The translations under genes and the position numbers were made by a program. Source: Branchiostoma lanceolatum (taxonomy: Eukaryota > Chordata > Leptocardii > Amphioxiformes > Branchiostomatidae). From it: a stretch of 64,000 nt of DNA. How positions within the stretch are numbered: position 1 is the first letter of the stretch; the number at the start of each line of letters is the position of its first letter. This document shows positions 22,246 through 56,455 of the stretch, piece after piece. The notes below the pieces were generated by a model. It was not told the DNA's origin, ran no database searches, and worked only from the letters and a program-made list of their open reading frames with translations. The stretch lies in NCBI RefSeq assembly GCF_035083965.1, contig NC_089723.1:35390193-35454192 (forward strand). The letters are read 5' to 3'.

Positions 22246-22667
22246 TCAGAGTTTGAGTGCCCGTGGCTTGCAGGACTGCATGATGGCGCGTGCCTGTTGG
22301 ATGAGTAACTGTTGGTCGGCCGTCTTCCCACAGGCAACCTGCTCGTATCTGGTGTCCAGCTGTGAAGACAGACGATCGTAAGGTCACATATTAAGCATTG
22401 TAAGCTAATCTTCCTTTATCATACAATGTGTTACTACTACAAACAAGTGACCACGTTTATGAGTATACATGTGAAAACAGCTGTCAATCCTCAAATATTC
22501 CAGTCATAAGACTGGCTGCTGTTTTCCGGTATCTTCTGTTTCATTGATTTTTCAATTTGCCTATAATTCATTGTATAAATAATGGTTACCTTGACAACTT
22601 TGCTTGTCTGTCTGTTCTGCACAGGGGTCTCCTGGAAATGGACGTGTCGTTTTGAGGCTGACCTCAG
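22246..22667 (-). CDS. MYB: Myb exons 16-17: conserved C-terminus
   Basis: Exon 16 (22667-22590) ends TSKVVK and exon 17 (22359-22246) encodes [19 protein letters not shown], a short helix and the terminus KPRALKL before TGA at 22248-22246. A- and B-Myb end similarly (VACGKT or VVYGKT, then TSRTLIL or TSRALIL). In B-Myb this segment contacts the MuvB core through LIN9/LIN52; here that is an inference by similarity. Confidence 0.9.
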
Positions 22668-23052
22668 CTGGTAACAGGTAGAGAAAAACTGGTTAATGTG
22701 TCAAATATCTTCACTACTAGATCATATATTACGCACCGCAAGTTTTTAACACTTTCAATATTGACTTCTACCTGTCCCACCTCAATAACAGTTACTGAAA
22801 AAAAAAGAGAAATAAAAATGAAATTGTACTTCAGATCTTTGTCTGGCATTTTCAATTTTCAAATTTTAAGGTATTGGATTTTTCAAAACCATTCATGATG
22901 ACTGGATTCAACAAATCCCACTGACAGGAAGTACTTCACTCACTCACTCACTGTCACTCACACTCAATCTGAGTCTGACACTCATTCACTCACTCACTCA
23001 CTCACTCACTCTAACTCACACACACACACACACACACTCATTCACACACACT

Positions 23053-23093
<41 letters not shown>

Positions 23094-26000
23094 ACGTGCA
23101 CTTCTTACCTTCATCTTTGTGGGTGAGGATGGCAGGTTGAAGGCGTTGTTGAGCCCCAGGGAGGTGTCTGCCAGCTGAACATCCTTCCCTCCCTCCACTC
23201 TGGACCCCGCGGGAGGGGAGAACAGCAGCGACACTTCCGACAGAAGATTCTTCATCTGGGAAACATGAGGATTGTTAATATTCTTTAGTCAGTCCAATGT
23301 CACATGGTACAAAAAACTGAGCTAAAAACTAAAGGTACGAGGACACTTGGCATCTTGGCGCCTCAATTACCCGTTTCAAAATAATACAATTTGAACAAAA
23401 ATGCCTATACAGTTCCAGAACAGGCTGCTAGGAAGGCCAAATCTGACATTAAAAGCTATCTGCCAACAAAAATCAAGAGCAGAGCATGTCCAGGACAAAA
23501 GATACAAAAGCTGGAAAAGTTCTGCTTCAGCACCAAGGACAGCTACCAGGAGGCCCCAAAAGGACCTTGGCATTGGGCATTGTCTTCCCAAGACCTAATC
23601 ACATACAACATATCATCACAATCAATCCAGAACTTCTTAAATTATTCCAATGAAAAATATCCAGAAATACAAAACGACAGACACGCAGCAAAAACTTTTT
23701 CACAGAGGTAACAAGACCTTTGTCATGATTACTTACCGGTGTGTCCATCAAGGCTTCCATAGCGTTTTCGTCAGCATCTGGTGCCCAGTTCTCCAGACAG
23801 GCCAGGGACTTCCGCGCCTTCTTGGATGGAGATGGGTTCTAACAAACATACAAAACAAGTACAGCATGTCAAAATCTGGGGATACAAAAATCATAAAAAG
23901 TCCTTAAGTAGGTAATTCTCAATGGGATTTATTGAAACTGTACACAGCAAAACATATACATGTGGGTAATGTATGGTTCATTTGGCAAAGACAGCAAGAG
24001 CAAGCCACACAGAAGTATGTTAAAATACAACTGAAGATCAGCTCGGACAGCTCCTCATCCCAGATAAATAATTTCTCAATGACTTTTTCTAACGCATGAA
24101 TCTACTACAAAAGTGTGTCAGGTAGCAGTTTAAAACTATCCGTAGGGTTTCTAACTTCTCACCTCTGACTTGCGTTTCCTGTCTGGGGTCTCGTTGTTGC
24201 AGAAGAGCTCGCTGTACTTCCCACCGTCCTCTTGTTTGATGACCTCTGACAGGTCCTTCTCAATGTGACCCGGGGTCACAGGCTGGAAGGAGAACAGGAC
24301 AAAATGTTCAGCATTGTACCGTTTCCCTTTCAGAAAGGCAAAGATTCCATAGCCTTTTTGAGGCTGTAGAGGCAGTGGGTTGTTAATCCACTGTGTCTAG
24401 GTGTGGTATTGGAAGAAGGAGCCTATCACTCTCCTTCCATCACGTTTACCTCCCAAATAAAGTATCCAAACTTAAGTCAGGTACCCATGGGTAGAGTGAG
24501 GAAAGTCATGCCTTTCCCAAGGACAGGTCTAGCCAGGAATCTAACCTGTAACTTCTTGATCCCATGTCTGATAGCCTAGCCACTTACTGACCTCAATCAC
24601 CAGTTAACAATTAATAACCAGCAAAGCTGTACAGCATTTTTTCATGATTTTGAAAAACATGTTTAACAGCCAGAGAGGTACGTACCAGATTCTTCAGCTT
24701 TCCTCCCTTCTTCTCCAGCTCAGCGAGGGCGTCCTTGAAAGGGGTGGGTGTCCTGGGCGTCATGTCAATCAGTCTGCGCTTCATCAGGGGGGTACGGAAC
24801 ACTTGTTCCCTGTTCAAGCATTTAAAAATGAGTAGGCTGAATAATACGACAAATAGCAAATATAAAGCCTCCATTAACATTCATCCACCAGGTTACATAA
24901 ATCTGCCACTTTGAAAATCAGTGGGCATGAGCAATCTCTAGTGCAGCACGCCCCAGTTTTGCACAGTTTAGATATATAGGAGTGTGTTATACTGGGGGAT
25001 GTTGCGTTGGACTGTCTGGAGGTATCTTTTCAGGGTGGCGGAATTATGGACCCTGTTGGAATTATGTTAGTAGATGTTACTGGCTTGTAGAAGACTAAAT
25101 CAAGGAGTACAAAAAGGAGATTGTTTCTATAGCATCAAGACTGAATACAAAATAAGTCGGTTCACGATTTGAACTGCACATGCGCAAGGTTAAAGGTCAA
25201 GGTCCCTCAGTCCTAAACACAATTTGTCTAGACAATGCGCCAAAAAAAATTACTCAAAATTTTGAAACAGTCAACTGACTATTTCAAAATTTTATCCAGT
25301 TGCTTGAGTAATTATTTTTGGCGTATCTTACTACCTGGATATCTAACTTTCATCAACGTGTTTTGACAATGCTTAATACATATCCAGACACGTTTGTTTA
25401 TCTCTTGGGAGCCTTTCACTTTGACATATAACCCACAGTGCATCATTCATATTGTGTAGTTTCAACAGTGAACCAGCTTATTGCAACATAGTATGCAGTA
25501 TTACATAGCATCCAGAGTTTCCAAAATATTTGTGCTTAGATTTGGGGAAAACTGGTACAAGCTTCGTACGAAGCTTTCTTCAGTTTTTAAGATGATAAAG
25601 TATGACTGACTGTCCATCCTTGTTCTCCTTGCCCATGATGCTGATAGAAGTGTTGACAGAAGTCGCTGGAGTGTTGAGCATCCCGCTGACCGGAGTGGTG
25701 CTGGTGGGGGCACGGCTGCAGATGGGGGTGGACGTCAGCACCTCCGCATTGATGTCTGGGGTGTTCAAGAACTGTACAAGTAGGGGGATATGCGTCTTGG
25801 TTAGTGTACTATCATATACTACAGTAAGAATACTGAGATCAACAAATGACAGTTACTCAAGCAGCTGGAAAACTTCTACAACTCACAGTACAAGCCAGTA
25901 TGAATTTGCTATTTGTCATACTCATTTCAAATCTTATCCAGTTGCTTGAGTAATCTGTCATCTGGAGTATCTTATTACCTGGATGTCTAGTGAGATCATC

Positions 26001-29000
26001 TATTTTCACTGGGACTTGATTTCTCGGTGGAAAGGAAAAGGAGCTTTTTTGAAAAGGAGTTTTTTGCTGTGCAGTAAGTTTGTGGTTGAAACAATTCTGA
26101 AAATAGAAGCAATGCAATGGAACATCCGTGGTGTCATACATTTGTGCCTGAGATCACTACGAAAATAAACCAGCACAAACATGTCAAGATTTACAGTATG
26201 TCCCTAGCTACACAGTCACCTCTTCGAAATTAGCAGACCCTGAGTAAAGCAAGGAAGTTACATTTGTCTCTGAGTCTTAAGTAATGTAATTGGTAGACTT
26301 TAAGAATAATGGCCATAGGACTTATATACAAATGTATCAATAATTCACATATTTTAACCAGATTTGAACACTTTTTGCCCAGTTGTTTAATTGCTGGGAA
26401 CTTGATAGCCCTTGAGCCTACCTGAGAAGGTGAGAAGGGCAGCGGTTTGATGGGTGTTCTCTGCGGAGTGTTGTCTGTCTCCTTACAGGGGGTCAGCGTG
26501 GTGTCGTGAGACATGCTGGACAGGGTCGACGTGCTGAGAGAGTTCTGTTCAGGTGGTTAAGGATACAAACCGACAAATTCCTTAATCTTACATCATGTGA
26601 GATCTTAAGACATGGGAAGTCTCAAACATCTGTGTACCTTGCCTTCAGGTGGGGAAAGCTTGAGTCAGATCCTTTAAAGGGTAACTACAGACAAACCTGT
26701 ACAACTTGTACTAGTACTTGTAGTTGTACTACAAGTGACTACCTTTCCATATAACGTTGGGTAACCTAAATTCGCGGGGTACTTAAATTCGAGATTTTTC
26801 GAAAACGGGGTATTTAGGGATATGTGCTAGATGCAACATAAGTAATACCGCTAGAAATGCAAACCTGCCAGACTTACGTATTCAGAACACTGTCTGAAAA
26901 GCTTCGATAAGCATGGATTATAAGGCGATGAGGTCAAAAACTCTCCGTCCCTTATTGGAACAGTCTGAGGACTTCGTGGGAGAATTAAACAACATGGTTG
27001 TCGGCTGGTTTATAAGAAAAATGTCACATCCGCTTCCTGCTCAACACAATTATTTACAAGACAACTTATTACAATCTCTTTTGCTAACCTGCAACTGGAT
27101 TCTAAGTGTGATCAATCATCAAAACTCCTCTCTGTTGCTACAACCTACGGCACGTGTATTTTCCCGCCGCCATATTGTTAACCAGAATCCTGTTGTCAAG
27201 CAGACGACAAAGGTTTGTGAGGAACACTTTTTTGTCTAAATGCTGCGTGTGATAGTGGACTGAGGAAGATATTTTCCTCAAAGTTTGCTCCTAGCACAAC
27301 AAGGAACACATGGACATAGTAGTATTACCATTGCTACGGCATCCAGCTAACTTCCCATGAATAATGTACTCTCACCTCTCAAATAAACGTACCGGTACGT
27401 TTATTTTTTTTCGCCTATTGTTCCACCCGGTACGTTCTTATTCTAGACGGTACGTTTATTATTTTTTGAAAAATTGAGGCTTTGCAAACCAGGAATCCCT
27501 CTAAAATCGTAAGTTAAGGTTTATCTGCCCATATTTCCCCGGTATTTTTGCTCGTAATTCGCTATTTTTCGGCCTACCGGCGTTGATTTTCTCGCCGCTT
27601 TGACGGCCTTGTGAAAAGTATCCTGGCGGCACTCGTAACATATCGGTCGATATCGCTATGACGCTACAAAGTAAACCGGAAAAAAAGACGCGACATTGAC
27701 ATTTTAAAATACAATTTTCATATAAATAACTTTGATAGTCTCTGTTTATATCGTAAACCAAAGCACGCTGATCAAAAACGTGTGGAGTAGGCTGCACGCC
27801 TGCACGGGGAATAATAATGAATAATTTCCTGACCACTATATCCGTAGTATCGGCAGCGCGGCGGAAGAATTATTTGTTCGCAGAAGACATGTAACACGTT
27901 AAAACAACAATCATAACTTAACTTCCCTTGTAATATGTGTTTTGAGGCCACAAAATCTCTAAAACGGCAGAAATATGTCCGATATGATTCGGTAAACAAC
28001 AGCGCGAAATCGCGAAACATGGCCGCCACTCTCAGGCATGGCGACAGTAAAACTAGCAGCATATTGCGTAGTGCGGATACCGATCTTTAAAATGATACCG
28101 TAAACGCATGGAAATATTATATTTTTTGGGCAACGATAGACACACAAGGCCATATTTATTTTCAGAGGGTTCATTTTTTTAAATAATCGTAAGATTTTCC
28201 CAATTTAGGTGGTTCATCGCGGGTTTCTAGTGTCAACACGTAATGGGTATCTTCTTAGTATGTGCGGTCTGTGACGTTGAGCTACTTTTACAGTCGATCT
28301 CTGTTCAAAATTGTGGGATTTACCGCGGGAACTCGAAATCCGAGCGTCTCACTTTGTTTTCGACGCTATGGAGCAAAAGTTTATATACATATTTCTTTTG
28401 TGGAAGGACTGTGTTCATATTTGTGTTTTTTTGTGGTTGATGTCTTTAGAAAATATGATCAGGTACATTTAACTTAACGCTTAAGCTGCCAGGTTTTTTA
28501 GCCAAGTAAAAATCAAAAATGTTTGACCCCTGACCTCCCTCACGAAACCCGCGAAACACCCAGCGGCGCTAACTCCCCTAACTTCCCGGCTTCGCGCGCT
28601 ACACGCACGCAAAGCTGTTTTGTTCTGGGGAATACCCTATCCCGGTTATAACCGGGTCCAGCACACAAGGCATATTTCTGTATCCCTAGTTAAGTCGGGA
28701 CTGGCAGCTTAAGGGTTAAGTACTCTGATGATTTTTGTTATATGTCACTGATTGTCAGTCATAATAAAATGATATAACAATTTTCTTTGATCACTTGCTT
28801 CAAGTTCCAAGTAGAAAAAGCATGTATCATGTACATTTTCACTTGTTGAATTTGAAAGCACCGTGGCCCCCGGTTAGGGGTCATAGCGGGGAACCTATGC
28901 CCAATTTTTCAATATTACTATTATATTTTACGAAGAGGCGAGGAAGATCATCATGATTTGAACAAGCTATGGACAGTTATTCTGTTCAATATCTATATAC

Positions 29001-32000
29001 TTAATAGGTATGGCATAATTGACTAAATATAAGTTACCTACCTGCTTATTATCTTATTTCCCTCTGACAGTGACAGTTGTACATGTATGGACACAGTTTA
29101 CCTAGCCTCGACTGTCGATTTTTGAAATTTTCCGGGGGGTACTTTTATTCCAGGGGGTACTTATATTACATTTTGAAAATTTGTTCGGGGGGTACTTCTA
29201 TTCCAGGGGGTACTTCTATTTGAGAGGTTAGAGTAACGTTACACGTTGCCCGATGATGACGATGGGCCGACTTTGAGTGAAGTTCTACCGACTCAACACA
29301 CGGGTTGTACCCGAACTGGCCTGATGTGTGCGGTACGGCCGTTTTTTCGTGTATTTTTTTTACTTGGACACGTCTATATCCATAGTACTCTCCTCAAGCC
29401 AAGGATGGAACGAATAGCTGCTGTATAAAATGTGATTAGCGGTAAGATATTGAAGACGAATCTTCTCTCCCGAATTAATGTGCCCGCCTGTCCGACAGCA
29501 CCGTAATTGTGCGTGCGGCGGACGGTAGTTTCAAGTTGAAATATTATGGTGTCAGCACGACTAGAGACAAAATCTACCATATATATGATTAGTGCAAAGA
29601 TAGTACATGATACTGACAGAATTATAGAAAAAAAGGATGGTTTATTGTTCTGCTAGATTGATTTCAGTCAACCATTATCGGAAAAATCCCGAATTTATGT
29701 TACCCAACGTTATATAAGGACCACCTGGCCAAAGTGGCCACTTCTTGGTGGTCCCTCACTTAGATTTCGTATGGACACAAGCGTTAAGAATCCTTTCTAT
29801 GTTATTGACCACCTCTCCACATAGACCAGATTTTATTGGTCACCTGAGTGGTCTTCTTGGGCAGTTTTGACTCAACTGGGCACAACTCTTGATGCTTGGT
29901 GTCGGCATATGGAACAACCTTTATTGAGGCTCAACCCTGCAATCTTAAAATCACAACAGGAACTGTCAACCCGTCAAAAGACCACTGCCAATGTTTCTTT
30001 TTGTATACATATCTATACTATTGTATTGTAGACGGCACATTAAGGATACGTGCTTCTTGCGTTTTCTCCTCAGGATGGGAGGTGTGGTGAACTTGGAAGT
30101 GATGGGGGATGTGATCGGGATCAGACCACCGCTCTTCCCTGGTGTCTCCTTAGCCAGCCCCTGGATGGCACGCCCATCAAACCTGTATTCTGCAACACAA
30201 TTAAAGAAAGGTGTAAGATATAGTAATTTGCACACATTTGTAAAACACACTTCTAACAAGTATCAGTATCTTTTCTATGAAAAATTCCAAGGTTGTTGAA
30301 GTCAAATGTGACACATGGCAAGAATCTTGAAAGCATAGAGTAGACAAAGAAAATGTTTACATTTTAACAGAGAATCAAAACAGGATCGTGTTATTTGATA
30401 TCAATCCATGAAAAGCTAAGTAAACTTTGTGTAAAGTGTGACAGGATTAGCTCCCAACCATGGTCTGGAGGCCGGGGGCTTAGACTTTTAAGTTTAAGTG
30501 CTGCAGATTTCAAATAACAGCAAACCGAGCTTTACAAACTACAGGAAGTACATGTTGCTCCGTTACCTGTGCTTCCTTCTGCAGGCAGGTGTCTGACTTG
30601 TTCCCTGTCCGCCGTCCTGTTGATGGCCATGTCCCCGATCAGCTCCAGCTGGCCGAAGTCCTTGTCCCACTCCTCTCCCTCCGCGTCGACCATCTGCAGC
30701 GTTTCCGTGAACTCCGGCACGGAGCGCAGCGGGGAGACGATGGCTGCGTGCAGAGCGTTGATAACTTGTTTGTGAGAGACGGAAAACAGTTGTGGGGGAG
30801 GTGGGACGAAGAGGACGATGTTGAGAGGAATGATTTTAACTTGCTGTAATCTTTGGGCTTTCTGTTCATAGTTTTTTTTTACCTGATGGAAATGTTCTGG
30901 CATATCATAATTTCATGGTTAGCTGTCAGTGATTTTTTTCTAGCCTGGATGCGTGACTCATAGCGCAGAAGGTGATACTAATACCTTCGGCTGGGAGAAC
31001 AGCATACATGTATATCCTGCTCCTAGAGTTGGCACTCTACCCCGTGGTAGATAATTAGAGGTAGGGTGCCAAATGATTAGTTGCAGCTCTTTTTTTATAA
31101 TTTTTCTGCCTATCATTTTAATGAGTTTGAGAAATAACCACTGTTTAAAGGTTTTGCTTGAATTAATGTTGCTGCCATTAGCTTGCTCAATGTAAATTTG
31201 TCAACATGTTCAAAAGCTTTTAAACCAATGTTATATTCATATTTCATTACTGCTACTCATTCAAATCTACAATTAGCTTTGTGATTTCCATGGATCTTTC
31301 TACGCTTTATAGTAGCTTAATGAAAGATTTAGCCCCAAACCAGCAGATGAAGTGACTTAGTCTGATGACTGATGATGTAGACAACACATAACAACATCAA
31401 GCAGTGTAGGATGAAATGGTCAGCAGGAAAGCACAGAAATAAGAGGGCAGAGAAAAGGAAACGAAATGGCCAAACTCAAAGGGGAACAACAAAAATGTAC
31501 TGCAACAGGTAAACTACTAGTATGCAAATCTGCAACATGGAACTGATAGCACAACCAGGGCTCGAAATTCATCTTTGGGAATAGGTGCACTGGTGCACCC
31601 AACTCAAAAAACTGGGTGCACAGAAAGAATTTTGGGTGCACCAGATAAAATAAAGTTGAATGTTCTTCTGACCATAATTACAAAGTTTAACGCTGCTGCC
31701 TCTCTTAAGAACTTCAATCTGTAATTCTATAGCTAACTTTAAAATTTCAAACAGATAATACATTAAATAAAGTACAGCAGAAATTTATCATGCTGCTTTT
31801 TATACTTACATTTCAAGAATATTCTGTATACTAGTGTACAATAGTACCTTAACCCTATAGGCTACAAAAATACATAGGTGCACCAGTGCACCCACAGTCA
31901 AAAATTAGGTGCACAGCTCCAATTTTGGGTGCATTGGGTGCACATGCACCCACTATTTCGAGCCCTGACAACAAAATAGATTAGTGTACACTTCTGATGA

Positions 32001-35000
32001 CTACAAAAACTACTTGCATCACAGCGTTCAAATGTGTGCATGTAAACATTCTTACTATCTTAGAGTACATTTGAATATTGGCGGAAATGACATAAGCACT
32101 GAGAGACCCCCTATGATGCAAGCAGTTTTTGTAGTCCCCAGAAGTGCAGGCTAGTCTATAGCTGTCAACACATACATTTGTTTCAATGCATTGAACAAGT
32201 TTGCAGGAAACATTCAATTCAAGTATGTTTCCACACATTGCAAATTAAGCTGCTACTAAAGCATCTGCAAGCAGCATCTACACAGAGCATGGCAGGGCTC
32301 GAATATATATATATTTGGGTTATCGCAATTTCTCAAAGATCAAAGCTGTCTTGTGCTGCGCATGGCAACATGAGTATCTCACACCGACTTTCGGATTCTG
32401 TCTGCAACTCTGGACAAGAGTGCTCTTTCCTCTCTCTTTTTATTTGGCTGACATTTTGCTTTGACATATGATGTTGTGCGTTGATGAAAGTTAGACATCG
32501 CATTACTCAAGCAACTGGATAAAGTTTTGAAACAGTCAGACGTTTCAGACAGTATCCACTGTCTTTCGTCAGTGACTAACGATAGGACTGAGAACACCAG
32601 GTTTTATACCAAAACTCTGAATAGATATGTTAATGAGGTAAAGACAATTTAGGATGTCTTGAAGTAGTCTTTAAAAAGAAGATTAATTCAAGACAAAGTT
32701 TATGCCAATAGTTCAATTAGCTACTGTTGTTCTAGTACAGTAACTAAATGTTGCTTGTCCGGGGGTGGGGGGTGGTGGGCAGTGCATTATCCCAGGTGCC
32801 TGAAAGTTGAACGCGTAGACCCCCTTTCCTGTTGAGGGCGGGGTTGTACATCCTCTCATATATTGCTTCTCTAATTCCCCGTTCGAACCAGCGTTCTTCA
32901 CGATCTAGGATGTCTATGATGTTGTGTATCGTATATTTTTAGGTTAGGTGCACCAGCGCACCTTTTTCCACAAAAGTATTTTGAGCCCTGTGCATTGAGC
33001 CCCTTACCATCGTTGTCCATGTTGTATACAATCCATTTGGTTGGAGACGGGTCCTCTGGGCCCTGAACCATGCGGTTAGACATCCCCACCCCCATCATGC
33101 CGTCCACCACGTCGCTGTTCCACTGGGACATGCTGTCGGCGGGGTAGTGCTGCTGCTGTTGCATGTTGTGGTCAGCAGGGGGCGCCATGCTACAGTCTCC
33201 TGTGTTCATGTACATGGGCTGCTGCTGCTGGTGCATGTATCCTTGGGCCTGGAAGGTAGCAAGATTGAATGTGCTGAACTGGACTCAGGCTACACCTAGT
33301 ATAGTAGTAATGTGCAAAAGTCCTTGTTGTCAACACCCTTAAGGTTTGGTCCTGATACCCTATTCAGGAGACTTGACAGACAAAGATCATAGGAACAAAC
33401 AGAAGTTTAATGCACACTCTGTGACTCTTGACAGTCCTGTTTCTCTATATATTTCAGACAGGATGCAGAGCTTTAACATCACAGTACCAATGTTTTTAGC
33501 CTGATGGTCATCCTAGTTAGTTCCAGGCCTTTCCTAAGGAATTAAGTTGGATGACACTCAGGCTACAATATTTTGACTACTACAATCCTTTTATAACACT
33601 GCAACAGTAAGACAATCTCAAATCCTGACACTCCCCTATTTCTGTACAATGTAATGTCCCACCTGCATCTGATCCTGTTGGTGCATGGGTTGCTGCACGT
33701 CCTGCTGCGGGGGTGGGTAGTACGTTGGGTAGGACATGTGGTTGTGGGAGAGGGGGTAGTACATGGAGGAGCTGGAGTTGCGCCGGCGGTACGGCTGTGT
33801 GATGCCCTCCTCTGCCTCGTACTTCCGCCGCATGGTCGAGTTCCAGTGGTTCTTGATGGCATTGTCGGTCCTTGGGATGGTAAGAAATTTAGGGTTATAA
33901 AATGTATCTTTCACATGACAATCGAGACCTATTTCAGTCTGCAAAGGTTACCCCCATTAACAATAATCTGCCGGGTTGCATAAATCCGCCACTCTGAAAA
34001 ACTATGGGTTTGACAGATATCTAGTGCAGTACATGGCAGGAATGCACAGTTTAGATATACAGGAGAGCATTATACTGGGGAACGTTGGGTTGGAGATCTG
34101 TTTGGACATATCTTTTCAGGGTGGCTAAAGAAAAGTAGCCTTCAGACAACATCAAGTTGTAAACAAGATGATCACTATCAATTTGGTGAAAGATGGCCTC
34201 TTTCAAAATTGAAAAGGCATTGTTCAATACACCGCAAACAATTCATTCCTTTAAAAGGTTGTCTTTGCTTTCATGTTGTCTTGGCTTTCTGTTCGCCAGG
34301 GAAATTGTCTGGAATTGGTGTTATGAAAGTACTTTTCCTTTTGTTTTCACCTTGCCAATGACAATGTTGTGCTTTGTGAGTTAATCATTCCAAATGTAAT
34401 GCTACTTCACTTGATATTGTGAACAAATCTACAGACGAAACTGCTGAAGACTACTAAGGGTATCAAGAAATCTGGTCTATGTGGACAGGTGGTCACTATA
34501 GACAGGAATGCTGGTGGTCAATGAGAAAATTATCTAAGTGACCACAAAAAAGTGGTCACAGTGGCAAGGAGTTCTTTATGTATACATAGAGGTGGTCATT
34601 TGAATGTACAGGTTTGACTGTATATCCATGACCAGGTGGTCCTTATGTTAAGGTGGACAGGTTTGAAAATATCTTATTGCTTCCAATGCAGAAGGACACT
34701 TGTGTTCAAAGTCTGTTCACCTTCCCGGCAGTAGTTTGGCAATCTCTGCCCATCTGTTCCCCAGCCGTTTGTGTGCCTCGTAGATGATCCTGTCCTCCTC
34801 CTCAGACCACGCACATTTCTTGATCTCCGGGTTCAGGTGATTGTGCCACCTAAAATACAAACAAATACATTTAAGTTTTTCAACAACAAGAATAGTACTT
34901 GAAAAGTTTAAATCTTACAGTTTTGAAGGTGGTGCAAGAAACAGCTCTGATACAGTCATGACACAAAAAGTAATTTTCAAACTGTCACTGGAATACCTAC

Positions 35001-38514: not shown

Positions 38515-38732
38515 CTTGGCGGGTTTAGCCCTGATCGTAGATCCGAGACTCTGTAAAACTCCCACAGAAGTACATCGGAAACTTCCCGGGTCCACAAAAC
38601 ACGCGATCGGCGCTTGATTATCCCTCAAAAAACGCCGAAATGTGGCTGGTTTTGGGGGGAGGAGAATGTCGAGCGGGCTTTTGGCGCGTGACGTCACCGG
38701 GAGAACTGGTTCGGATTTGCGCGCGGTGTGAT

Positions 38733-38925
38733 GTCATACATCACGTGATGTACGTTCTCATCTTTGATTGGATAAATCTATTGATTCTTTTGATCACATC
38801 AGTTCTTGAGGTTAAAGGTTACCTGGCGTCACATATCACGTGATGTATATTCTTATCTTTGATTGGATGGATCTAATTCTTGAAATGATTACATCATTTC
38901 TTGAGGTTGAAGGTCAAAAATATAT
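38733..38925. repeat. 95-bp tandem duplication in the shared promoter
   Basis: Two diverged copies each contain atcacgtgatgta, ttctyatctttgattggat and cttgaggttraaggt. Equivalent motifs are exactly 95 bp apart (CACGTG 38742 and 38837; ATTGG 38767 and 38862). The duplication doubles an E-box plus CCAAT module. Confidence 0.85.
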
Positions 38926-38965
38926 ACTCATGCGCACTGACCTGTTTTCTTTCTTTTTTGCCAAG

Positions 38966-45100: not shown

Positions 45101-48100
45101 TTACACTAACATAATCATAACAACATCAAGTCTCCATTTTGAAGCAATGCTTGAAAATCACAAAACAAATTTAAATTCATGATTGATAAAATTCTCCTTG
45201 TCTGTAACCAAGAATATTAAAGAAAAACAATGACCAAACTCAAATGGCAGCTACCTCAATATTATTATCTAACATTCTTTTAGTGATCAATATTATTCAA
45301 AGAAATAGGGGGGAAATTTGCCTCAGATTTGACTGGGACCATCACAGGAAAAATTTGATATATTTTGTGGTACAGTTCTACATGTAGATTATTTTGTACA
45401 GAAAATATTTTACAACACACTCATACATAACAATTAAGATTATTCTACTAATCTGAATGATCACAAAGCATCTGACAGTCCTGGTTGGAATGGTCCATTC
45501 AGACTATTTGGCTACATTATAGGGTGATACATCTATGTTTTGTGTTACTGTAAGTATTGACTGTTGTAAATGTAGACTATAACTTAGAAAATGAAAGAAT
45601 GCAGTACACATATGTACATAGTACACAATGTGGTACTTCTGTGCAGTTTCCCTTCTACTTTTGTATCGCAAAACTGTAAAATTGTAAAATTCTGAAAAAT
45701 GGTGCATGCAAGCAACTATATGCCTTTTGTAACCATCTGTAGGACTTGATATTAGAAGTACTTATTAGTAAGTTGTCTTGTTTGAGAGTGCAATGTTTTG
45801 TGGTTCATGCAGTTGAGAGAAGTGACAGATTTCCTGCAGTTTCTTTTGTGAGTTTTTATATGGATTTTGTACTGAACAATGGCTTAATAAAGTACTGATG
45901 AGAACCTACATGGATATGGTCACTAGTAGTGGTGTTGTGTCCTCTGTAATATGCAGGTAATCATACCTTACAAAGTACTTATAAAGAAACTCACAGTCAA
46001 ACCTGGCCTTGACCTGTTTCTAGCTTTTACCCCTCATCTAAATATCATTGGACGGAACATTCAGTCGAGCGCTGGAAGGCGCAACAATCCTAAGGGGATG
46101 TGGGGGCATGCTACCCTGGAAAAAGTTTGAAATCTCAACCCTCTGAAAAGCTATTTCCTGCGTTTTTTGGAGGCAAATTTTGCTGGTAGATTAACCTCAG
46201 TCCGTCATTGGCTACAAAATTCTGTCAAATGACGAAATGACGGCCACATGCAAGAACACTGTACACAGTGTAAGGTATCAGACTTCCTTTATATCTGTCA
46301 GTCCTTGTGGCTTGTGTTGATAGGTACAGGTGCAGGGGACAGGTGGCAGCAGGCCCCAGCTGCAGACAGCTGTCACGCGAAGGAGGAGGCAGCCCCCAGG
46401 GTGGCCCAGGTCAGCACCCCCAGGAGACAGGTCAAAACCGGTTTCCAGCCGGTCGCAGCCAGAAGCAAACAGGTCACAACCGGTTTCCAGGTGCCTCCAA
46501 CAGACACCAGAGAAGTGATGTGAGCAAACTTAAATGATGAATTTTTGAAGAGAACTTGACGTGATTTCATTTCGAAGCAAAGTTGAACTGTAATTTTCAA
46601 CACAACATTAGATTTGTATCACATTGTGTTCTTGAGAGTTGCTGCAACTGCATTTAAGTTTGCAGTGGTTTGATGCAGTGGCCTCTTCACGACAACTTAA
46701 AACCACCGCGAAAATGTCTTCTCCCTGACTACCACCTTGTTTCAATGGCATACTAAAAATCACTGCAAACACTCCATTTTCTCCCTACCGGCGAAATTGA
46801 ATCACTTTAACTTAAATGCATTTGCAGTAGTTTCTGTTATCATGTGTGTTGGTAATAATCATAATGATAGTACAATGCTAAACTTTCTTCCAACACTAAG
46901 GTATACACGTGTCAATTAGGTCACGTGTCTAACTCTTGCGAGCTCACGTTCGGAAGTGATTGGTCATTATTGATCCTGAAGAAGGTGACAGTGGTCGTTG
47001 AAAATTTGATCCTTGTATACCTTAGTGTTGGAAGAAAGTTTAGCATTGTACTAAAAAGTTGTTGCTGAGTTCTTTCCTGACGTCTATTTACGTTGTGCAG
47101 TGCAGAGAATGGTTTAGGCAGCAGCACAGAGGCTGGTGAGAGGGAGGACCAGCAGGCCATGCCTACATCACAGAAGGCCGCCGGCAAGACCAAGCAGGTA
47201 ACTACAAATCACTTAACAACACATCCCATTCGATAGATAGATTCAACTATATTTTAGGGTCGGGGAGATAAGCCTTACTGTATACAAATATAATATAATA
47301 TATCAAATGTAATAGAATATAATTTCATATAATATATCAAAAAATGTCTAGACCTTTGAACCAATTGACTGTGTAAGTGACGTGTTGGACGTGTTGATTT
47401 ACTCATATCTATTCATATTATGATATACTAGGTTATTCATTTGTATCCACTTGCTTGTATGTATAGGTTATTAGTAGACCTTACAAAAGTCGCTCTCCTT
47501 TTGTTGTGTCAATAAATCAAAGATTTCATTTCATTAAATTCTATGGTTGTAACTAAACTGACTGCAGAAAGTTGAAAACCGTGATGACTGACAAGTTGTA
47601 ATTCCTATCGTGTAACTTTAAATGGATTTGAATTATTATTTAGTGACACTCTTCATGTTTTGTAGTTGCAGACTGAGTTTGTATCATGTGAAATGTTACA
47701 TAGTTTGTATCAAATTGATAGTACAATGAAACCTGTACAAGTGACCAGCGCTACATACATGTAAAGACCATCTAGCCAATGTGACCACTTCTTGGTGTTT
47801 CTTAAAAGTTAGATAATTTTTCCCATTGACACAAGCACAAAACATCCTGTCTATAGTGACAGTGGTCTTCTTGGGCAGTTTTGACTGTTTAGTACAATTT
47901 GAAGAGCTTTGTTACACAGCCAGAATGAACCATGCTTGATTTTGTATTGAATATTGTTTTGTTACATGTGAACAGGTCCTAGATGTTGCAGCAGAACTTA
48001 GTAAAAGGGATGAGGGCAAAGAGGTCATCAACATGGTGATCATAGGTAAGAAACTGTTTTGTATTACTGTGCAGTCAGCACCAGGGGTAGGGAAACAGTC

Positions 48101-51100
48101 ATCACCAGAAACATGGAAACACAGTCAGCACCAGGGACAGGGACATTATTTCAGCACCGGGGACAGGGGAACACTGTCAGCGCCAGGGAAAGGGAAACAC
48201 TGTCAGTACCAGGGGCAGGGAAACACAATCAGCACCAGGGACAGGGAAATACAGTCAGGGACAGGGAAACACAGTCAACACCTGGGACAGGGAAACACAG
48301 TTAGTACCAGGGACAGGGAAACACAGTCAATACCAGGGACAGGGAAATACAGTCAGGGACAGGGAAACACAGTCAACACCAGGGACAGGGAAACACAATC
48401 AGCACCAGGGACAGGGAAACACAGTCAGCACCAGGGACAGGGAAACACAATCAGCACCAGGGACAGGGAAACACAGTCAGCACTAAGGACAGCAAAACAC
48501 AGTCAACATCAGGGACAGGGAAACACAGTCAGCACCAGGGACAGGGAAACACAATCAGCACCAGGGACAGGGAAACACAGTCAGCACCAGGGACAGGGAA
48601 ACACAATCAGCACCAGGGACAGGGAAACACAGTCAGCACTAAGGACAGCAAAACACAGTCAACATCAGGGACAGGGAAACACAGTCAGCACCAGGGACAG
48701 GGAAACACAATCAGCACCAGGGACAGGGAAACACAGTCAGCACCAGGGACAGGGAAACACAATCAGCACCAGGGACAGGGAAACACAGTCAGCACCAGGG
48801 ACAGGGAAACACAATCAGCACCAGGGACAGGGAAACACAGTCAGCACCAGGGACAGGGAAACACAATCAGCACCAGGGACAGGGAAACACAGTCAACATC
48901 AGGGACAGGGAAACAAAGTCAGCACCAGGGACAGGGAAACACAATCAGCACCAGGGACAGGGAAACACAATCAGCACCAGGTCCCTATTTTTAGGAGAGC
49001 CACACTTTGAGCACTTTAAAGATCTCACCACTAGTAGGGGTCCTATATGATTTCAATTGGACAGCTTTGAAAGATAAAGAAAATTTGGTCGATGGATGAC
49101 ATTATCATACATGATACTGTATACTGTAATTCTTGATTTGTTAACTGTAACTTAATTTTAGCGAATTTAACGGTCACTAGGCAACCGCCAAAATTTCATC
49201 ATCGCTAATATTTGATCACTAATATTTGAGACAGTAATGTTTGTTCCCATTGTTAAAATCAAGTTCCGTGACCTACTCCATTTTCCCCCAACCGCTATAT
49301 TTCCCTGCCGTTATATTAAAGTGATTTACAGTATCTGAGAATATGTAGATGTACAATAACTTGTCACATGCATGTGATAGTGAATGCTGTGTTTTCCCCC
49401 CTCAGGCCATGTAGATGCAGGTAAGAGCACCCTGATGGGCCACCTCCTGTACCGGTTGGGACATGTCAACAAGAAGACCATGCACAAGTACGAGGTGGAG
49501 TCTCAGAAGGCCGGCAAGGCGTCCTTCGCTTACGCCTGGGTACTGGACGAGACTGGAGAGGAGAGAGTCAGGTGGGTCTGGAATAGATTTTGGGATTTTG
49601 AGGGGTTGATACAAGTTGGAATACAGAATGGGATATTGGGATTTTGGGGGGTTGATACAAGTTGGAATACAGAATGTTTGATATTGTTATGTACATGTGC
49701 ACGTTAGAGTCAAAATGGCATAAGTTCAAGACTAGAATGACCTTGCTCTGGACTAACTCCCAACCATGGTCCCGAGAAGGTCAGGAAGCCAAGGTTGGTT
49801 ATGTGTGACAGGGGCTCAAAGACCAGTGTCTTGAAACAACGGCTACCTATTAGTAAACTCTAAGGTAAAGACTCATTGTTTTATTGTGTACATGTAGGGG
49901 TATTACCATGGATGTTGGCCTGACCAAGTTTGAGACTGACCACAAGGTGGTGACCCTGCTGGACGCACCTGGACACAGAGACTTCATCCCCAACATGATC
50001 ACAGGTGCTGCACAGGTGAGGAAACACACCTGGTGGATCTCATACTATAGGATCTTAGGCTGGGTTTACACATGCGCTTCCAAGTACACCCTGAATGTGC
50101 TTGGAAATGCGTGTGTAAACCCAGCCTTACCTTGTACTGTAGGTTCATTTATTTCTATAAGTTCATATATTTTCTTATTGTCATTTATCATGATATAGCA
50201 TTAAGATTTTGTTGGGAAAAAACATGAAAATAATTTCTGTGCGAAATTTATAGAAGTTAGTATCCAAAAAATTACTTGCACCAGGGACAGGGAAACACAG
50301 TCAGGACTAGGGACAGGGAAACACAGTCAGCACTAGGGACAGGGTAGCAAAGTCAGTACCAGGAAAAGGGAAACACAGTGAGGGACAGGGAAACACAGTC
50401 AGCACCAGGGACAGGGAAACACAGTCAGCACCAGGGACAGGGAAACACAGTCAGCACTAGGGACAGGGTAGCAAAGTCAGTACCAGGAAAAGGGAAACAC
50501 AGTGAGGGACAGGGAAACACAGTCAGCACCAGGGACAGGGAAACACAGTCAGCACCAGGGACAGGGAAACACAGTCAGCACCAGGGACAGGGAAACAAAG
50601 TCAGTACCAGGGACAGGGAAACACAGTCAGTACCAGGGACAGGGAAACACAGTCAGTACCTGGGACAGGGAAACAAAGTCAGTACCAGGGACAGGGAAAC
50701 ACAGTCAGTTATGGCAATGTCATGTTATCCCTTTCAGATTAAAGCTAAATTTTGTCCTTTCATGACTGCAGGCAGATGTAGCCATCTTGGTGGTCGACGC
50801 CAGTACTGGGGAGTTCGAGGCCGGGTTCGAGGCCGGCGGACAGACGCGGGAACACGCCATGTTGGTCAGGTCACTCGGGGTCACGCAGCTGGCCGTGGCC
50901 GTCAACAAACTGGACACAGTAAGTCTGGCTTATCAAAACATACAGAAGTGATAGCGTTGTGTTGCCGTAAAAGTTTTAAAAGAGTTGGGAAGAGGTCCTG
51001 GGTTCAAATCCCCTGACTTCCCATTGATGTTGTGCCCTTTGGGAAAGGTATTTAAGACAACTTTTCTCACTCCACCCATGTGTAAAATTGGGTACCTGAC

Positions 51101-54100
51101 TTTGGTTGGGGAGGTAAAAGGCAGTGGAAGGAGAGGGATGGGCTCCGCCTTCCAATGCCGTGCCCTAGACACAGTGGATAACAACCCACTGACCCTACGG
51201 CTTCAAAAAGGCTGTGGGACTACCTTTACGGAAGTGATGAAATTTTCTGTAAATAGTAGTTTAATTTTGATTAAGAATTCATGTAGAAATTGTAAAATTA
51301 AGTATGCTTTATTTTCTGCACATTGTACATGAAGGGTATCTCTGTATCTATATAGCTGGGAATGTTACCCTTTGGTTCATCACAACAGGGTACTTTGTGT
51401 CGATGCTACATTAATGTACCCTTTATTCCACAGGTGGGCTGGTCAGAAAACAGATACCAGGAGATTGTTAAGAAGCTGGGGCATTTTCTCAAGCAGGCAG
51501 GATTCAAGGTCCGTAAAATACATTCAATTTGATCTGAATCAAATATTTACAGAAGATATTTTGTTATGACTAAGTCTTGTTTTAGATATGAAACAAATTT
51601 TTTCAACAAAGCTGGTTTATTTATATTTTGTAGACCTAAAAAAAGAGCATAGCAGTATAGAGGCACATTATTAATATCATTACAAAGACACAGTTGAGAG
51701 GTGAAGCAGTCATCCTCAATTGAGGTGAAGCATGATGCTTTAGTAGCTAGTGGTAGTGCAATGTGGCTTTGCTACTCCTTTTTTTTGCCAACTATACAGG
51801 GTCACTCCTACTCTTCTAAATAAGTGTGTTGGGTTAGTACATGACATTTGACTTTTTCATAGTATGGTTTCTGAATAAAATTTTGTAATGATGATCATAA
51901 GCTATGCTGAATGAACCAGTGTGTTTCCCTGTGCAGGACTCTGACGTTGTCTACATCCCTGTGAGCGGTCTTCAGGGAGAGAACTTGATCAAGCCCGCTT
52001 CTGAACCCCCGTTAACCACCTGGTACAAGGGGCCATGTCTGCTACAGCAAATAGGTGGGTTTGCCATATACAATGCTCATGATTACCCCTGGTTTTGTTT
52101 TCAATGTGTCTGTTTGTTTGTTTGTTTGCTTGTGTGTTTGTAATTTTTTTAATGCAGTAGAGTGGCTGGTTTTTCAATGCTAGGCATGTCGAACAAGTTG
52201 GGTCAAATGAGGCACCTGCTATATGCAAGTTTGTTGCCTTATGATGTCGGTCAGGAAAATATGAATTAAGACAGAATCAGTGAGAAGTTAACAATAATGA
52301 ATCCTACAAGAAATTCACAAAAGCTGAAAATGTTTTACAGAGGTATGAGGTATCAATTACTACAAGGCATAGGATAGGTCCCATCTGATTGGTTCTGTGT
52401 TGAGAAACACTCCTGAATGACTAACATGAGTCTCATTTTTGTACACAGATTCTTTCAAGTCTCCTCCAAGGCCTGTGGACAAGCCATTTAGGTTCTGTGT
52501 TTCTGATGTTTTTAAAGGTGAGAAATATAGACTTTGTTTTGCTAATGGCATGGTATATCTTTTATCTATTTGCTATTACAAGTGTTCATCCACTTTGAAA
52601 AACAGTGGGTTTGAGAAATCTCTAGTGCAGCACCCCGTTGAGTTGGAGGTTTGGTTGGACGTATCTTTTTAGGGTGACAGAATTATATATCCTGGTGTCC
52701 TTATGTTTTAATTAGTTATGTCAGTATAGTACAGGTATAGGTACAGTATACTACAATTATACACTAGTATGCAGAATATACTTGAAATTTACGTATCAGA
52801 AAATAATAAAACCATAAAGTTTGTTGTACTATATTTGATGTATTACATGTACTTGTTTAAATTAGCTACAGAATTTGAGATTGAAGTTCTTAAGAGAGGC
52901 AGTAGGGTTTGTAAAATAATATGTTTTGCTGACATTCTACTTAATTTTATTTTGTGCACCCAAAATTCTTTCTGTGCACCTAAATTTTCAGGTTAAGTTC
53001 ACCTATTCTCAAAAATGAATTTGAGCCCTGTTGTGTTCCTGTTGCAGGGATGGGGAGTGGTTTCAGTGTCGCGGGCAGGATGGTGGCAGGGAGCATACAG
53101 AACGGCACCAGGGTCATGGTGATGCCATCAGGGGAAACTGCAACGGTCAAAGGTAGAAACTGAATACTTTGGTTTATGTGTTAATCTTGGGTGAAGTAGT
53201 ACAGAATTAGCTACATGTACATGTATGCCTGTGGGGGAAATCAACCGGTGCAATGGCCTAGTGGATAGAGTGTTCGCCTTGCATACGGTAGGTCGTGAGT
53301 TCGAACCCCGGCCGGGTCATACCAAAGACTTTTAAAAATGATACATACTGCTTTCTCTGCTTAGCACTCAGCATTTGAGGAAGAGTATGGTAGTTAAACA
53401 CGCACCACTACCAGTGGACTAGCCCCCCGCTGTAGTGATAAAGTTGTGTGGCCCAGCTGGGCTACCAAAACGGAGATGGGCGCCGCCTTATGCACCGTCT
53501 GGTGCGGGGAGGACTTTAACTTTTTTTTAATGCCTGTGGGGGAAACTAGACATTTTGTTTCCTATTGGACTCTCTAAAATTGTCTTCACTTTATTTGCAT
53601 ATGAACCATACAGTAGTTTGTGGTTAAAAGCCTATTCAAGCAACTGGATATGATTTTGGAAAACTTTTAGGCGTATCGTATTACCTGGATGTCAAACCTT
53701 CATCGACTGGCTTTTTTCTCACCTTGTCTCAGGAATTGCAATGCACGACTTCCCGATGAACTGGGCGTGTGCAGGGGACCACGCCACACTCACAATAACG
53801 GGCACTGATATAATGAAAGTCAGGTAAGAGGTCACTGTGACTTTTAAAGATGTAACAATCATCTCCTCTAGGTTTAAATGTATACTTGAAGACTGATACG
53901 GACATTACTCTTGAAAAGGTATATGCATACTCTCCTGTAGGAAAGTGGACACTCCGGGACTTTTAAGTGTTCATTCCTGTTGTTTGTTTAAAGTCCATGG
54001 GCCTGCCTAAAAATAGAGGAATGTTGACTTAAAATATTCAATATTCTTTTCTAGAGAAATGTCCAGATTTGATTGGACTGAACTTATTTGGATGTGAAAC

Positions 54101-56455
54101 AGTACTACATGTATGTATTGTACATTGTAGTAACCAGTATTCTGCCCCCAGTGTTGGGAGTGTGCTGTGTGACTTTGCCAACAGTTCTATGTACATTGTA
54201 GTAACCAATGGTAGTAACTAGGTAGTTGTAGTGGGCAACCTCAAGCCAACCGTACACACTCACGCCACATCTTCAGAAAAGACACTGGAGCCGCATATCC
54301 CTGTTTAGGAAAGATGTCGGTTAGCTTGAGTGCCTCTTTCCCCAATTCCAATGGTAGTAACTAGTGTTATGTGTATGTCCCCATGCAGTGTTGGGAGTGT
54401 GCTGTGTGACTTAGCCAACCCCATCCAGGCCGCCTCCAGAATCAAGGCCAGAGTCATCATCTTCAACATTGATGTGCCAATCACTAAGGGATTCCCTGTG
54501 AGTTTCTCCACATTCTACCAGAGATTTTTGTTTTTGTTTGTTTTTATTCCATACCCAGTAAACTGCCCCATGGTGTAACACACCAGGTTTGTACTTGGAG
54601 TACAAGTTGCATATCCGAACAGATTTATTTTACCCACTCACAGCGAAGGACTCCTGTTTTCTCAATAAGTGTAGTTGGTTCTTTAACAGTTTGCTGTGGG
54701 GCTCTCTCAAACACAGGGCCTCCATCTAACCTACATACAAAGTACCCCTACTCTTTTCAGTTGGTTATTTTACGTGCTCGATGTGTGACTCTCCCCAAGC
54801 ACAGGACCTCCATTGAACATCAAGCTTCAGTGAGATAACCACTTAACCCTTTCAAGGTGATACTGTACATCTTGGCTCATTGTGTTTGTTTCCATGTTTC
54901 CGTAGGTGGTGTTCCATTACCAGACGCTGAGTGAACCTGCAAATATCCGTAAACTCATCAGCCTGCTGCATAAAAGTACTGGTGAGGTCACGAGAAACAA
55001 ACCCAGGTATGATACCCACAAACTCTATTACTGATGGGGTTTCAGATATAATCATGTCAATGTGTATGTTTTGTGTACTTATTTTAATTAGTTGTAGTTT
55101 AACTACCAGATTGGAAATAGGTCAACTTTGCTTTGATTTAAATGATTTTAGTTTGGAAAAATTCAATGTAGCACATTTGATTGTTGGATTTTTTAAAAGG
55201 TATTTTAGACCAAACAGAAAGTTTTCTTATTTTTTGCTTTGCATTGTTTCAGCATTTGGTAGAAGTAATCCTCTTATTCTTCCTTCTCACTCCCAAAATA
55301 AATTGTTTGCGCACTTGAAGTAGGCCATGACAGTTGCATGTAAATAAGGGAAAACTTAATACAAATTTCAGGTGAGTCTTTAGATCATCATCCTTTGGGA
55401 TGTATCAAAGACAGACATGTGCATGAGATATCATATTGGATCCTAATGATGTTTATTGTTTTTATTGTAAAGTTCTGAGCTTTTGATCCAACACAAAGAA
55501 AGGAACTCACCTTGAATTTTTGGTCGGAACTCCAACCTCCCTCAGATGTTTGATTCACTGCGCTGAAGCAATTGAAGCCAGAAGCCTGATGATGTCAGTA
55601 GTGAGTCAAAAGAGGCTCAAAACTTTACAATATGTACTCTACCAACACAGATGAGCTTACATTCGAATGTGTATTGTTTTGGTGTTTCTAGGTGCTTGTC
55701 CAAAGGAAACAATGCTGTTATAGAAGTTGAGCTGAACCGGCCGGTGTGTTTAGAACTGTACAAGGACAACAAAGACCTGGGGAGGTTCATGTTACGGTAC
55801 GGGAGTGCCACCATTGCTGCTGGGGTCGTCACAGAGGTACGTAAAATGCCCCGTCACACATTCAGGCTCCTTCCACAACTGTGCTCTTTACCACTCCCCA
55901 ATCAGCGATGTCCCTGTCAAGTGGTAGCAGCCTCACAGTTCTTGGTTCTAATTGGTAACTGGGAGACTCCTTCAGTCATGCGAAGGGCATCTTAAGGGGC
56001 TTGTCCAGTCAGACTTTTGTACAGCTTTTGACTTGTACGTTGTATATGTATGGTCTTCATGACTTTTTGTAAGATTTCCCATTGTTGATAGCAATGGGTC
56101 GAGTCATTAGGAAAAGCTAGTGAAATGCAGACTTAATATTAAGTTAATGCCCTGCTGTAGATTAGGACCTGGCATGCCTTTTGCCTTTGAGCTGTGTTGT
56201 TTCAAAGGATTTTTAGATCTTTTATATAAACAGAATTACCAAATATGGACAAAGGCTTTGTTCAATTTGTTGGTTTAAAAAACTGATTTGATATGATATA
56301 AAGGTTTAGAAATCCTCGGGAATGATTTCAAATCATGTATAACCAAATACAATGTATAGACAAAGACTTTGTTCAACTTGTTGTTTGTATACATGGTTGA
56401 CTATTGTACATCATTCTCACTTCTTCAACCCTTCATCTGTCCACAGATCCCTTAA
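39115..56455 (+). CDS. HBS1L: HBS1-like translational GTPase, full-length isoform
   Basis: Twenty phase-consistent exons: 39115-39157, 39890-39958, 40553-40732, 41181-41314, 41751-41808, 46324-46519, 47101-47197, 47976-48045, 49406-49571, 49898-50015, 50772-50918, 51434-51508, 51937-52054, 52449-52517, 53048-53152, 53733-53823, 54389-54497, 54906-55006, 55692-55836, 56447-56455. They encode 699 aa (human 684). The N-terminus ([21 protein letters not shown], then the HBS1 N-terminal helical domain in exon 4) precedes an acidic linker and the eRF3/EF1A-like GTPase: G1 [10 protein letters not shown]2 RGITMDVG, G3 DAPGH, G4 NKLD, G5-like PVSGLQGEN. Two beta-barrel domains follow ([21 protein letters not shown]). 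HBS1 with Pelota/Dom34 splits stalled ribosomes in no-go and non-stop decay. The last coding exon adds only IP and the stop. Confidence 0.96.
40333..40523. mobile_element. MITE with cagtcaaacctg ends, HBS1L intron 2
   Basis: The left end cagtcaaacctgtacaacta and right end gggcaggtttggctgt are inverted. Inside, gaccacctgtccatatagac and ttttatcggtcc recur. Related copies lie at 34440-34662, 47726-47888 and, split, 26686-29880. It ends about 30 bp before the exon 3 acceptor. Confidence 0.75.
41896..41998. mobile_element. 103-bp foldback MITE in HBS1L intron 5
   Basis: The left arm atgtcagggtagagactccg and the right arm ending tctctaccctgacat pair over about 38 bp with two or three mismatches. 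The 6-bp sequence atccta flanks it on both sides (41890-41895, 41999-42004). Confidence 0.82.
42440..44331 (+). CDS. HBS1L: SKI7-like alternative last exon of HBS1L
   Basis: A 1.9-kb open exon lies in the intron between HBS1L exons 5 and 6. The acceptor ttgttag at 42433-42439 accepts the phase-1 donor of exon 5 (41808), giving ...PPKTQ then [11 protein letters not shown]; the stop is at 44329-44331. The spliced product would have 161 N-terminal HBS1L residues plus about 630 from this exon (791 aa) and no GTPase. The exon is Ser/Gly/Leu rich and probably disordered. Near its end is [13 protein letters not shown] followed by [11 protein letters not shown] (44245-44316), the kind of conserved motif found in HBS1/SKI7 short isoforms of animals and plants, which bridge the cytoplasmic exosome and SKI complex. 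Exon 6 uses the same phase, so mutually exclusive splicing is possible. The SKI7 role is family knowledge; splicing here is inferred. Confidence 0.88.
44332..45910 (+). other. HBS1L: 3' UTR and poly(A) signal of the SKI7-like isoform
   Basis: No ORF follows the stop at 44331. AATAAA at 45886-45891 (ggcttaataaagtactg) is the first clear poly(A) signal and would end a terminal exon of about 3.5 kb. This supports the exon being terminal, not a retained intron. Confidence 0.6.
46868..47053. mobile_element. 186-bp MITE with about 38-bp inverted repeats, HBS1L intron 6
   Basis: Ends tagtacaatgctaaactttc and gaaagtttagcattgtacta are exact complements, and the pairing continues through ttccaacactaaggtata. 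The element contains two acacgtgtc/cacgtgtct motifs and ggaagtgattggtcattatt. It lies 47 bp upstream of exon 7. A partial relative is at 15830-15997. Confidence 0.88.
47726..47888. mobile_element. MITE of the cagtcaaacctg family, HBS1L intron 7
   Basis: Left end agtacaatgaaacctgtaca, interior ccaatgtgaccacttcttgg and right end gggcagttttgactgt match 40333-40523. Confidence 0.65.
48073..48990. repeat. 26-bp minisatellite in HBS1L intron 8, about 35 copies
   Basis: The unit is cagcaccagggacagggaaa followed by cacagt. cagtcagc and caatcagc units partly alternate, giving a 52-bp dimer, and a larger 156-bp (six-unit) duplication is marked by the variant cactaaggacagcaaaacac at 48481 and 48637. 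Because 26 repeats close after 78 bp in every frame, it makes a spurious 325-codon ORF with a 26-residue period. Confidence 0.97.
49406..50918 (+). CDS. HBS1L: HBS1L exons 9-11: core of the G domain
   Basis: Exon 9 (49406-49571) carries most of the P-loop (HVDAGKST; the preceding G spans the exon 8/9 junction) and [19 protein letters not shown]. Exon 10 (49898-50015) carries switch I GITMDVG and switch [14 protein letters not shown]. Exon 11 (50772-50918) carries [23 protein letters not shown] and NKLD. All GTP-contact residues expected for this family are present, so the enzyme should be active. Confidence 0.95.
50056..50129. mobile_element. 74-bp foldback MITE in HBS1L intron 10
   Basis: taggctgggtttacacatgc and its complement gcgtgtgtaaacccagcctta pair over about 33 bp around a short loop (accctgaa). 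No coding content. Confidence 0.75.
50277..50708. repeat. 26-bp minisatellite in HBS1L intron 10, about 16 copies
   Basis: The same unit and orientation as at 48073-48990, with array-specific variants: gtcagtaccaggaaaaggg and a shortened 20-bp unit gtgagggacagggaaacaca. A 124-bp block is duplicated (agggtagcaa at 50341 and 50465). It begins about 260 bp after exon 10 and ends about 60 bp before exon 11. Confidence 0.97.
50965..51240 (+). mobile_element. tRNA-derived SINE in HBS1L intron 11
   Basis: A pol III B box (ggttcaaatcc) at about 51001 is followed by gttgtgccctttgggaaagg, tgggtacctgactttggttg, ggaaggagagggatgggctc and cagtggataacaacccact. Reverse copies lie at 24355-24560 and 61360-61590; a partial one is at 41360-41445. 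Confidence 0.75.
52586..52690. mobile_element. MITE family with gccaccctga ends, copy 3 (shortened)
   Basis: ccactttgaaaaacagtggg, tctctagtgcagcacc and tatctttttagggtgacaga match 24883-25065, with an internal deletion. HBS1L intron 14. Confidence 0.65.
52865..53032. mobile_element. partial hAT-like MITE, inverted relative of 31556-31967
   Basis: The reverse complement shares aggggcacaarattcatytt-like ends, gggtgcacagaaagaatttt, taaataaagttgaatg-like sequence and cctctcttaagaacttcaat with 31556-31745. It abuts the acceptor of HBS1L exon 15 (53048). Confidence 0.7.
53241..53529 (+). mobile_element. tRNA-derived SINE with 16-bp target duplication
   Basis: A tRNA-like head (A box tggcctagtgg, B box gagttcgaacc) is followed by a 190-bp body (gtgtggcccagctgggctac, aacggagatgggcgccgcc) and a T-rich tail. 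The 16-bp atgcctgtgggggaaa occurs exactly at 53225-53240 and 53530-53545. A recent, clean retroposition into HBS1L intron 15. Confidence 0.93.
54150..54183 (+). repeat. duplicated fragment of HBS1L exon 17
   Basis: A polypyrimidine tract plus AG and the first 33 bases of exon 17 (tgttgggagtgtgctgtgtg...) are repeated 237 bp upstream of the real exon with one mismatch. The flanking gtagtaac motifs are also shared. If spliced in, the frame would reach TAG near 54217. Confidence 0.8.

Follow-up and report, generated by a model that had tools for sequence, protein, structure and literature searches.

In mammals, MYB is flanked by HBS1L and AHI1 (PMC7910556, PMC12721900), and the sequence separating HBS1L from MYB is described as intergenic, with LDB1 and p300 sites that contact the Myb promoter and an LDB1-binding cluster stretching over 60 kb (PMC3711450). 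HBS1L-MYB is also reported as one of three loci setting human fetal haemoglobin levels (PMC3978511, PMC9994754). A second relevant system is the bidirectional promoter of amphioxus, found by Marletaz et al. 2018 (PMC6292497) at 3,950 of 15,884 neighbouring genes (25%), compared with 12.83% in mouse and 7.84% in zebrafish, and enriched for housekeeping functions; most of 372 putatively ancestral bidirectional promoters were lost in vertebrates, which those authors read as disentanglement after whole-genome duplication. Here we describe a 64,000-nucleotide stretch of the amphioxus Branchiostoma lanceolatum (the window, numbered from its first base) in which Myb and HBS1L stand head to head, and we weigh whether the short interval between their start codons represents an ancient shared promoter.

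Head-to-head arrangement of Myb and HBS1L

Myb on the minus strand and HBS1L on the plus strand are adjacent and divergent, as a sequence-only reading of this DNA had claimed, and our intact multi-exon models, with secure identities, also agree with its 600-bp distance between start codons and with its gene ends at 22246 and 56455. The features on which the arrangement depends are as follows.

22246 to 38514, minus strand: Myb gene; 15 coding exons, 717 amino acids (aa); three Myb repeats, Cmyb_C and a C-terminal stretch like the B-Myb MuvB-binding domain
38492 to 38514, minus strand: Myb coding exon 1; 23 nt, MSRHRYC, donor score 4.5
38515 to 39114, no strand: divergent interval of 600 bp, presumed bidirectional promoter; CpG observed/expected ratio (o/e) of 1.15 over 38400-39150
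39115 to 56455, plus strand: HBS1L gene, HBS1 form; 17 coding exons, 579 aa; junction 50922/51447 uncertain and last exon putative

Exactly 600 bases separate the Myb ATG at 38514 from the HBS1L ATG at 39115, so that two protein-coding genes point away from each other across a short interval, as measured from ATG to ATG. Both frames are intact, Myb running from its ATG to a TGA at 22246 and HBS1L from its ATG to a TAA at 56455 in a single open frame. Misassembly of the orientation, which the earlier reading had named as grounds against its claim, has left no sign, since the window contains no undetermined base (N) and both genes are collinear. To build the gene models, cores were picked by hand and then linked with a script limited to GT/AG junctions; GT/AG borders are thus present by construction, and the models may lack exons where conservation is weak.

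The identity of Myb is evidenced by PF00249 matches in three stretches (E 5.2e-51) and a Cmyb_C match (E 9.1e-29) in Pfam, and by the similarity of residues 37-192 to c-Myb among PDB sequences (E 1.3e-84). Three of its junctions (30896, 26474 and 25611) are weak, with scores of -0.9 to -1.5. The C-terminal stretch aligns weakly but collinearly with 6c48 chain F (B-Myb), at E 0.19 when 39 aa served as the query and at E 1.1 when 86 aa did, and shares the DQ pair of B-Myb. A single Myb of B-Myb-like type is common among invertebrates, A-Myb and c-Myb having arisen by duplications (PMC7225089, PMC7910556), and the gene described here would be a cell-cycle regulator of this B-Myb-like invertebrate kind.

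HBS1L combines an HBS1_N domain with the translational GTPase set (PF08938, PF00009, PF03144, PF03143 and PF22594 in Pfam) and matches the HBS1-like protein 5lzw among PDB sequences with E 1.3e-235, its N-terminus reading MSRHRNIR vs MARHRNVR. The weak junction at 50922/51447 (scores -4.3 and -3.0) makes a few residues near it uncertain, and the final exon (VVTE|IP*) is a prediction to which a read-through form ending at 55995 is the alternative.

The Myb and HBS1L proteins both start with MSRHR, and the opening 15 coding bases of Myb (38500-38514) and of HBS1L (39115-39129) form an inverted repeat of 14/15, in exact register at the ATGs. A match as good was found for 31 of the 1,654,026 opposite-strand ATG pairs in the window, which makes it unusual. 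As a candidate mirror duplication this palindrome was set aside: it was noticed post hoc and ends after 15 bases, and when the 1-kb region was shuffled 150 times, 21 of the shuffles contained at least one inverted repeat of 14/15 somewhere. A gapped cross-strand test reached a score met in 3/1000 shuffles, its top match being an E-box palindrome, not the start-exon repeat. We regard the palindrome as a curiosity only.

CpG composition

Vertebrate genomes are CpG-depleted almost throughout. The window has a GC fraction of 0.412 and a CpG o/e of 0.62 overall, made up of very different parts: 1.15 across the interval vs 0.33 in HBS1L (0.38 and 0.34 in its parts without minisatellites) vs 0.56 in Myb, with 1.13 in the Patched region left of Myb. 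This patchwork is the pattern of a mosaic-methylated invertebrate genome and makes a vertebrate origin of the DNA unlikely, and with regard to broad expression of the two genes, what the composition offers is CpG-depleted gene bodies beside a CpG-rich interval. In amphioxus nearly all methylation is reported to lie in gene bodies, where it tracks expression (PMC6292497).

Motifs in the 600-bp interval

Fourteen patterns, picked after reading the sequence, were scanned in the interval and compared with the window's own rate per 600 bp; ten of the 14 matched and four did not. Three features of the interval are of particular relevance.

38680 to 38696, plus strand: E2F-type TTTGGCGC adjoining a perfect cAMP-response element (CRE) TGACGTCA, Myb-proximal; expected 0.07 and 0.09 per 600 bp
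38733 to 38914, no strand: 95-bp tandem duplication, 80% identical; each copy with TCACGTGA, CTTTGATTGG and an AGGTTRAAGGT direct repeat
38963 to 38972, plus strand: YY1 motif AAGATGGCGG, the sole match in the window, HBS1L-proximal

The E2F pattern TTTSGCGC occurs once, and the CRE is one palindrome counted on both strands. YY1, also present once, has an expectation of 0.01 in the interval, and this motif is among those scored in amphioxus promoters, ubiquitous ones included (PMC6292497). Two palindromic TCACGTGA sites (0.06 expected), two matches of a TCF-like site (0.15 expected) and two of the AGGT direct repeat (0.06 expected) were also found; several sites are double because the 95-bp unit is tandemly duplicated. 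Matches of a shorter E2F core and of plain CACGTG overlap sites already named. A cell-cycle promoter of B-Myb type (E2F plus the cell-cycle genes homology region, CHR) was considered and is not claimed, E2F matching and CHR not. The interval does not show the erythroid signature of its mammalian counterpart: a TAL1-GATA composite has no match in the 600 bp, and WGATAR has one match vs 1.42 expected.

Proposed explanation

We consider it probable that the interval serves as a bidirectional promoter, compact and of CpG type, whose inheritance goes back to a time before the genome duplications of vertebrates. The 600 bp would form one nucleosome-depleted promoter region firing both ways, in which E2F/CRE sites might serve the Myb side and YY1 the HBS1L side, with the duplicated E-box/CCAAT unit placed between them. 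The two genes served would be broadly expressed, namely Myb and HBS1L, the latter acting in ribosome rescue and, by alternative splicing, as a SKI7-like exosome adaptor. Myb would be single-copy in this genome. In vertebrates the copy that became c-MYB would have kept HBS1L alongside, given that A-Myb and c-Myb arose by duplication, and enhancers may then have accumulated between both promoters.

The simplest account, the window being non-vertebrate, is that amphioxus and vertebrates received the pair from a shared ancestor. The earlier suggestion that the pairing predates vertebrates is supported in part: gene order, divergence and the 600-bp spacing are real, and the early date is likely given the non-vertebrate window. 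Its further suggestion, that a compact promoter expanded in mammals, fits the published disentanglement trend by analogy, and is the general finding of PMC6292497 applied to one pair. The stronger statement, that the mammalian fetal-haemoglobin interval is this ancient Myb/HBS1L bidirectional promoter pulled apart, with enhancers gathering between its half-promoters once one Myb duplicate had become c-MYB, HBS1L only an old promoter partner and amphioxus retaining the pre-split state, seems to us evenly balanced between right and wrong.

Several points weigh against a shared ancestral promoter. The amphioxus side of the comparison is one genome and the mammalian side published accounts, so that the ancestry argument depends on a single invertebrate genome. 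The 600 bp is a spacing of start codons, not of transcription start sites, and CpG depletion within the Myb body is uneven, with o/e of 0.89 and 0.95 in 2-kb bins over 26-30 kb. Besides the choice of patterns after reading, two kinds of match are near chance, namely CCAAT (2 vs 1.1 expected) and a TATA-like palindrome for which each strand was counted (2 vs 1.2 expected), a looser ETS pattern has 1 match vs 0.79 expected, and CHR, NRF1, CCGGAAGT and the Myb site have no match in the 600-bp scan. The 95-bp copies were also tried as a footprint of selection; their mismatches are unclustered (longest exact run P = 0.56), and the duplication consequently gives no evidence of motif selection. The MuvB-binding match of Myb is weak, and c-Myb is reported to retain a similar MuvB-binding-like stretch without binding (PMC7225089), for which reasons this stretch does not show B-Myb function. 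Lastly, insects and vertebrates seem to have acquired their divergent gene pairs separately (PMC2670823), and depth beyond chordates is accordingly not to be assumed; together with the weak junctions, this conclusion slightly lowered our confidence, which still favours the shared promoter.

Among the alternatives, the one that survives best holds that the genes are kept together by regulatory elements in or beyond a neighbour, not by a shared promoter. Regulation from within a neighbour does occur at the mammalian locus, since the top-ranked element of a CRISPR interference screen in T-cell acute lymphoblastic leukaemia was an enhancer of MYB located within an intron of AHI1 (PMC12721900); a shared 600-bp promoter, however, would be enough to hold the two genes together, and we consider this alternative unlikely. 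A little less likely still is compaction, in which ancestral neighbours had a longer interval, the amphioxus lineage lost the spacer and vertebrates are nearer to the original condition: the direction of the change cannot be read from a single species, and short divergent intervals are common in amphioxus generally (PMC6292497). Independent joining of the genes in amphioxus and vertebrates would be in keeping with the insect and vertebrate pairs of PMC2670823 and with mismatched outer neighbours (Patched/sterol-sensing domain and uridine kinase vs AHI1 and ALDH8A1), but adjacency and divergent orientation both match, for which chance is of the order of 1e-4 (arithmetic with about 20,000 genes), making such convergence very improbable.

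The inherited bidirectional promoter is not, to judge by titles, described for Myb/HBS1L outside vertebrates among the literature matches listed. The main text of PMC6292497 does not contain 'myb', and in PMC5560861 the sole mention of HBS1L is as a phylogenetic outgroup. Searches of other contigs were uninformative on animal gene order: Myb repeats in bacterial and archaeal contigs gave four loci, none of the four with an HBS1L match, and the HBS1L GTPase gave none in viral contigs.

The observation is real and well supported, and illustrates a known process well; what makes it of special interest is the identity of the locus. If the proposed history is true, a pre-vertebrate 600-bp version would offer a concrete place from which to study the origin of the enhancer interval and the continued attachment of HBS1L, and would show in one clear case how promoters are disentangled once a genome has been duplicated.

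The SKI7-like exon and repeats of HBS1L

Two further features lie within HBS1L.

42445 to 44331, plus strand: SKI7-like terminal exon, predicted alternative form ending in TGA, with 10-residue and 15-residue motifs
48072 to 48981, plus strand: 26-bp minisatellite, a tandem repeat in an HBS1L intron

The open frame at 42445-44331 (629 codons including the stop) is a predicted terminal exon of a SKI7-like HBS1L splice form, with similarity to HBS1L isoform 2 (PDB 9g8m, E 1.5e-10). Its motifs resemble, with departures at a few positions, the metazoan consensus A+PShFAahL and IaPF[D/R]F[K/D][S/T]aSPDDIV+A (PMC6143672). The exon is known in kind, as SKI7-like orthologs have been reported in cephalochordates among other invertebrates (PMC6143672).

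A second array of a similar 26-bp minisatellite occupies 50278-50708 in a different HBS1L intron, and the arrays yield long spurious open frames in several frames. The segments 54033-54218 and 54330-54575 include a possible partial duplicate of an HBS1L exon, on comparison of two 12-residue stretches.

Neighbouring genes and other observations

Beyond Myb, one or more Patched/sterol-sensing-domain genes with Pfam matches lie on the minus strand at about 8000-17700, and a 153-bp tandem repeat (14383-15255) falls within this CpG-rich region. Matches to the BAAT/acyl-CoA thioesterase C-terminal domain at about 975-5150, in all three plus frames, are apparently exons of at least one gene. Downstream of HBS1L, a plus-strand uridine kinase gene (PF00485) at about 61720-63380 has an apparent duplicated exon at 61733-62083. 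A B box resembling that of a tRNA was seen by eye in Myb intron 1 and rejected, ARAGORN and Rfam (gathering threshold) calling only a tRNA-Arg (CCT; 67.3 bits) on the plus strand at 59303-59375.

Two Endozoicomonas assemblies carry open frames with eukaryote-like R2R3 Myb domains (L002:9287-10513 and L001:2896-3741), whose best segments are 54% and 58% identical, one of the frames lying on a 531-kb scaffold. These possibly reflect uptake from a host or, for a 4.3-kb contig, contamination.

Comparison with known systems

The sequence-only reading had likened the pair to human 6q23. Adjacency of the same two genes in human and mouse stands, and the divergence is shared as well, the human orientation being HBS1L minus and MYB plus. 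The mammalian interval is long, its LDB1 cluster alone covering 60 kb, whereas that of amphioxus is 600 bp and lacks the clustered GATA1/TAL1/LDB1-type sites. The outer neighbours differ as well, with Patched/sterol-sensing-domain genes beyond Myb and uridine kinase beyond HBS1L in amphioxus, and in mammals AHI1 and ALDH8A1 nearby. Because flanking gene order does not match, conservation is confined to the pair and does not extend to a larger block.

The 14 residues of amphioxus HBS1L exon 1 align gap-free to 5lzw. Compared with the alternatively spliced HBS1/SKI7 locus (PMC6143672; PDB 9g8m), the predicted amphioxus exon is long, serine/leucine-rich upstream of the conserved motifs, and departs from the metazoan motif consensus at a few positions. 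With the putatively ancestral chordate bidirectional promoters (PMC6292497), the amphioxus pair shares divergent protein-coding genes, a short CpG-rich interval and a YY1 motif.

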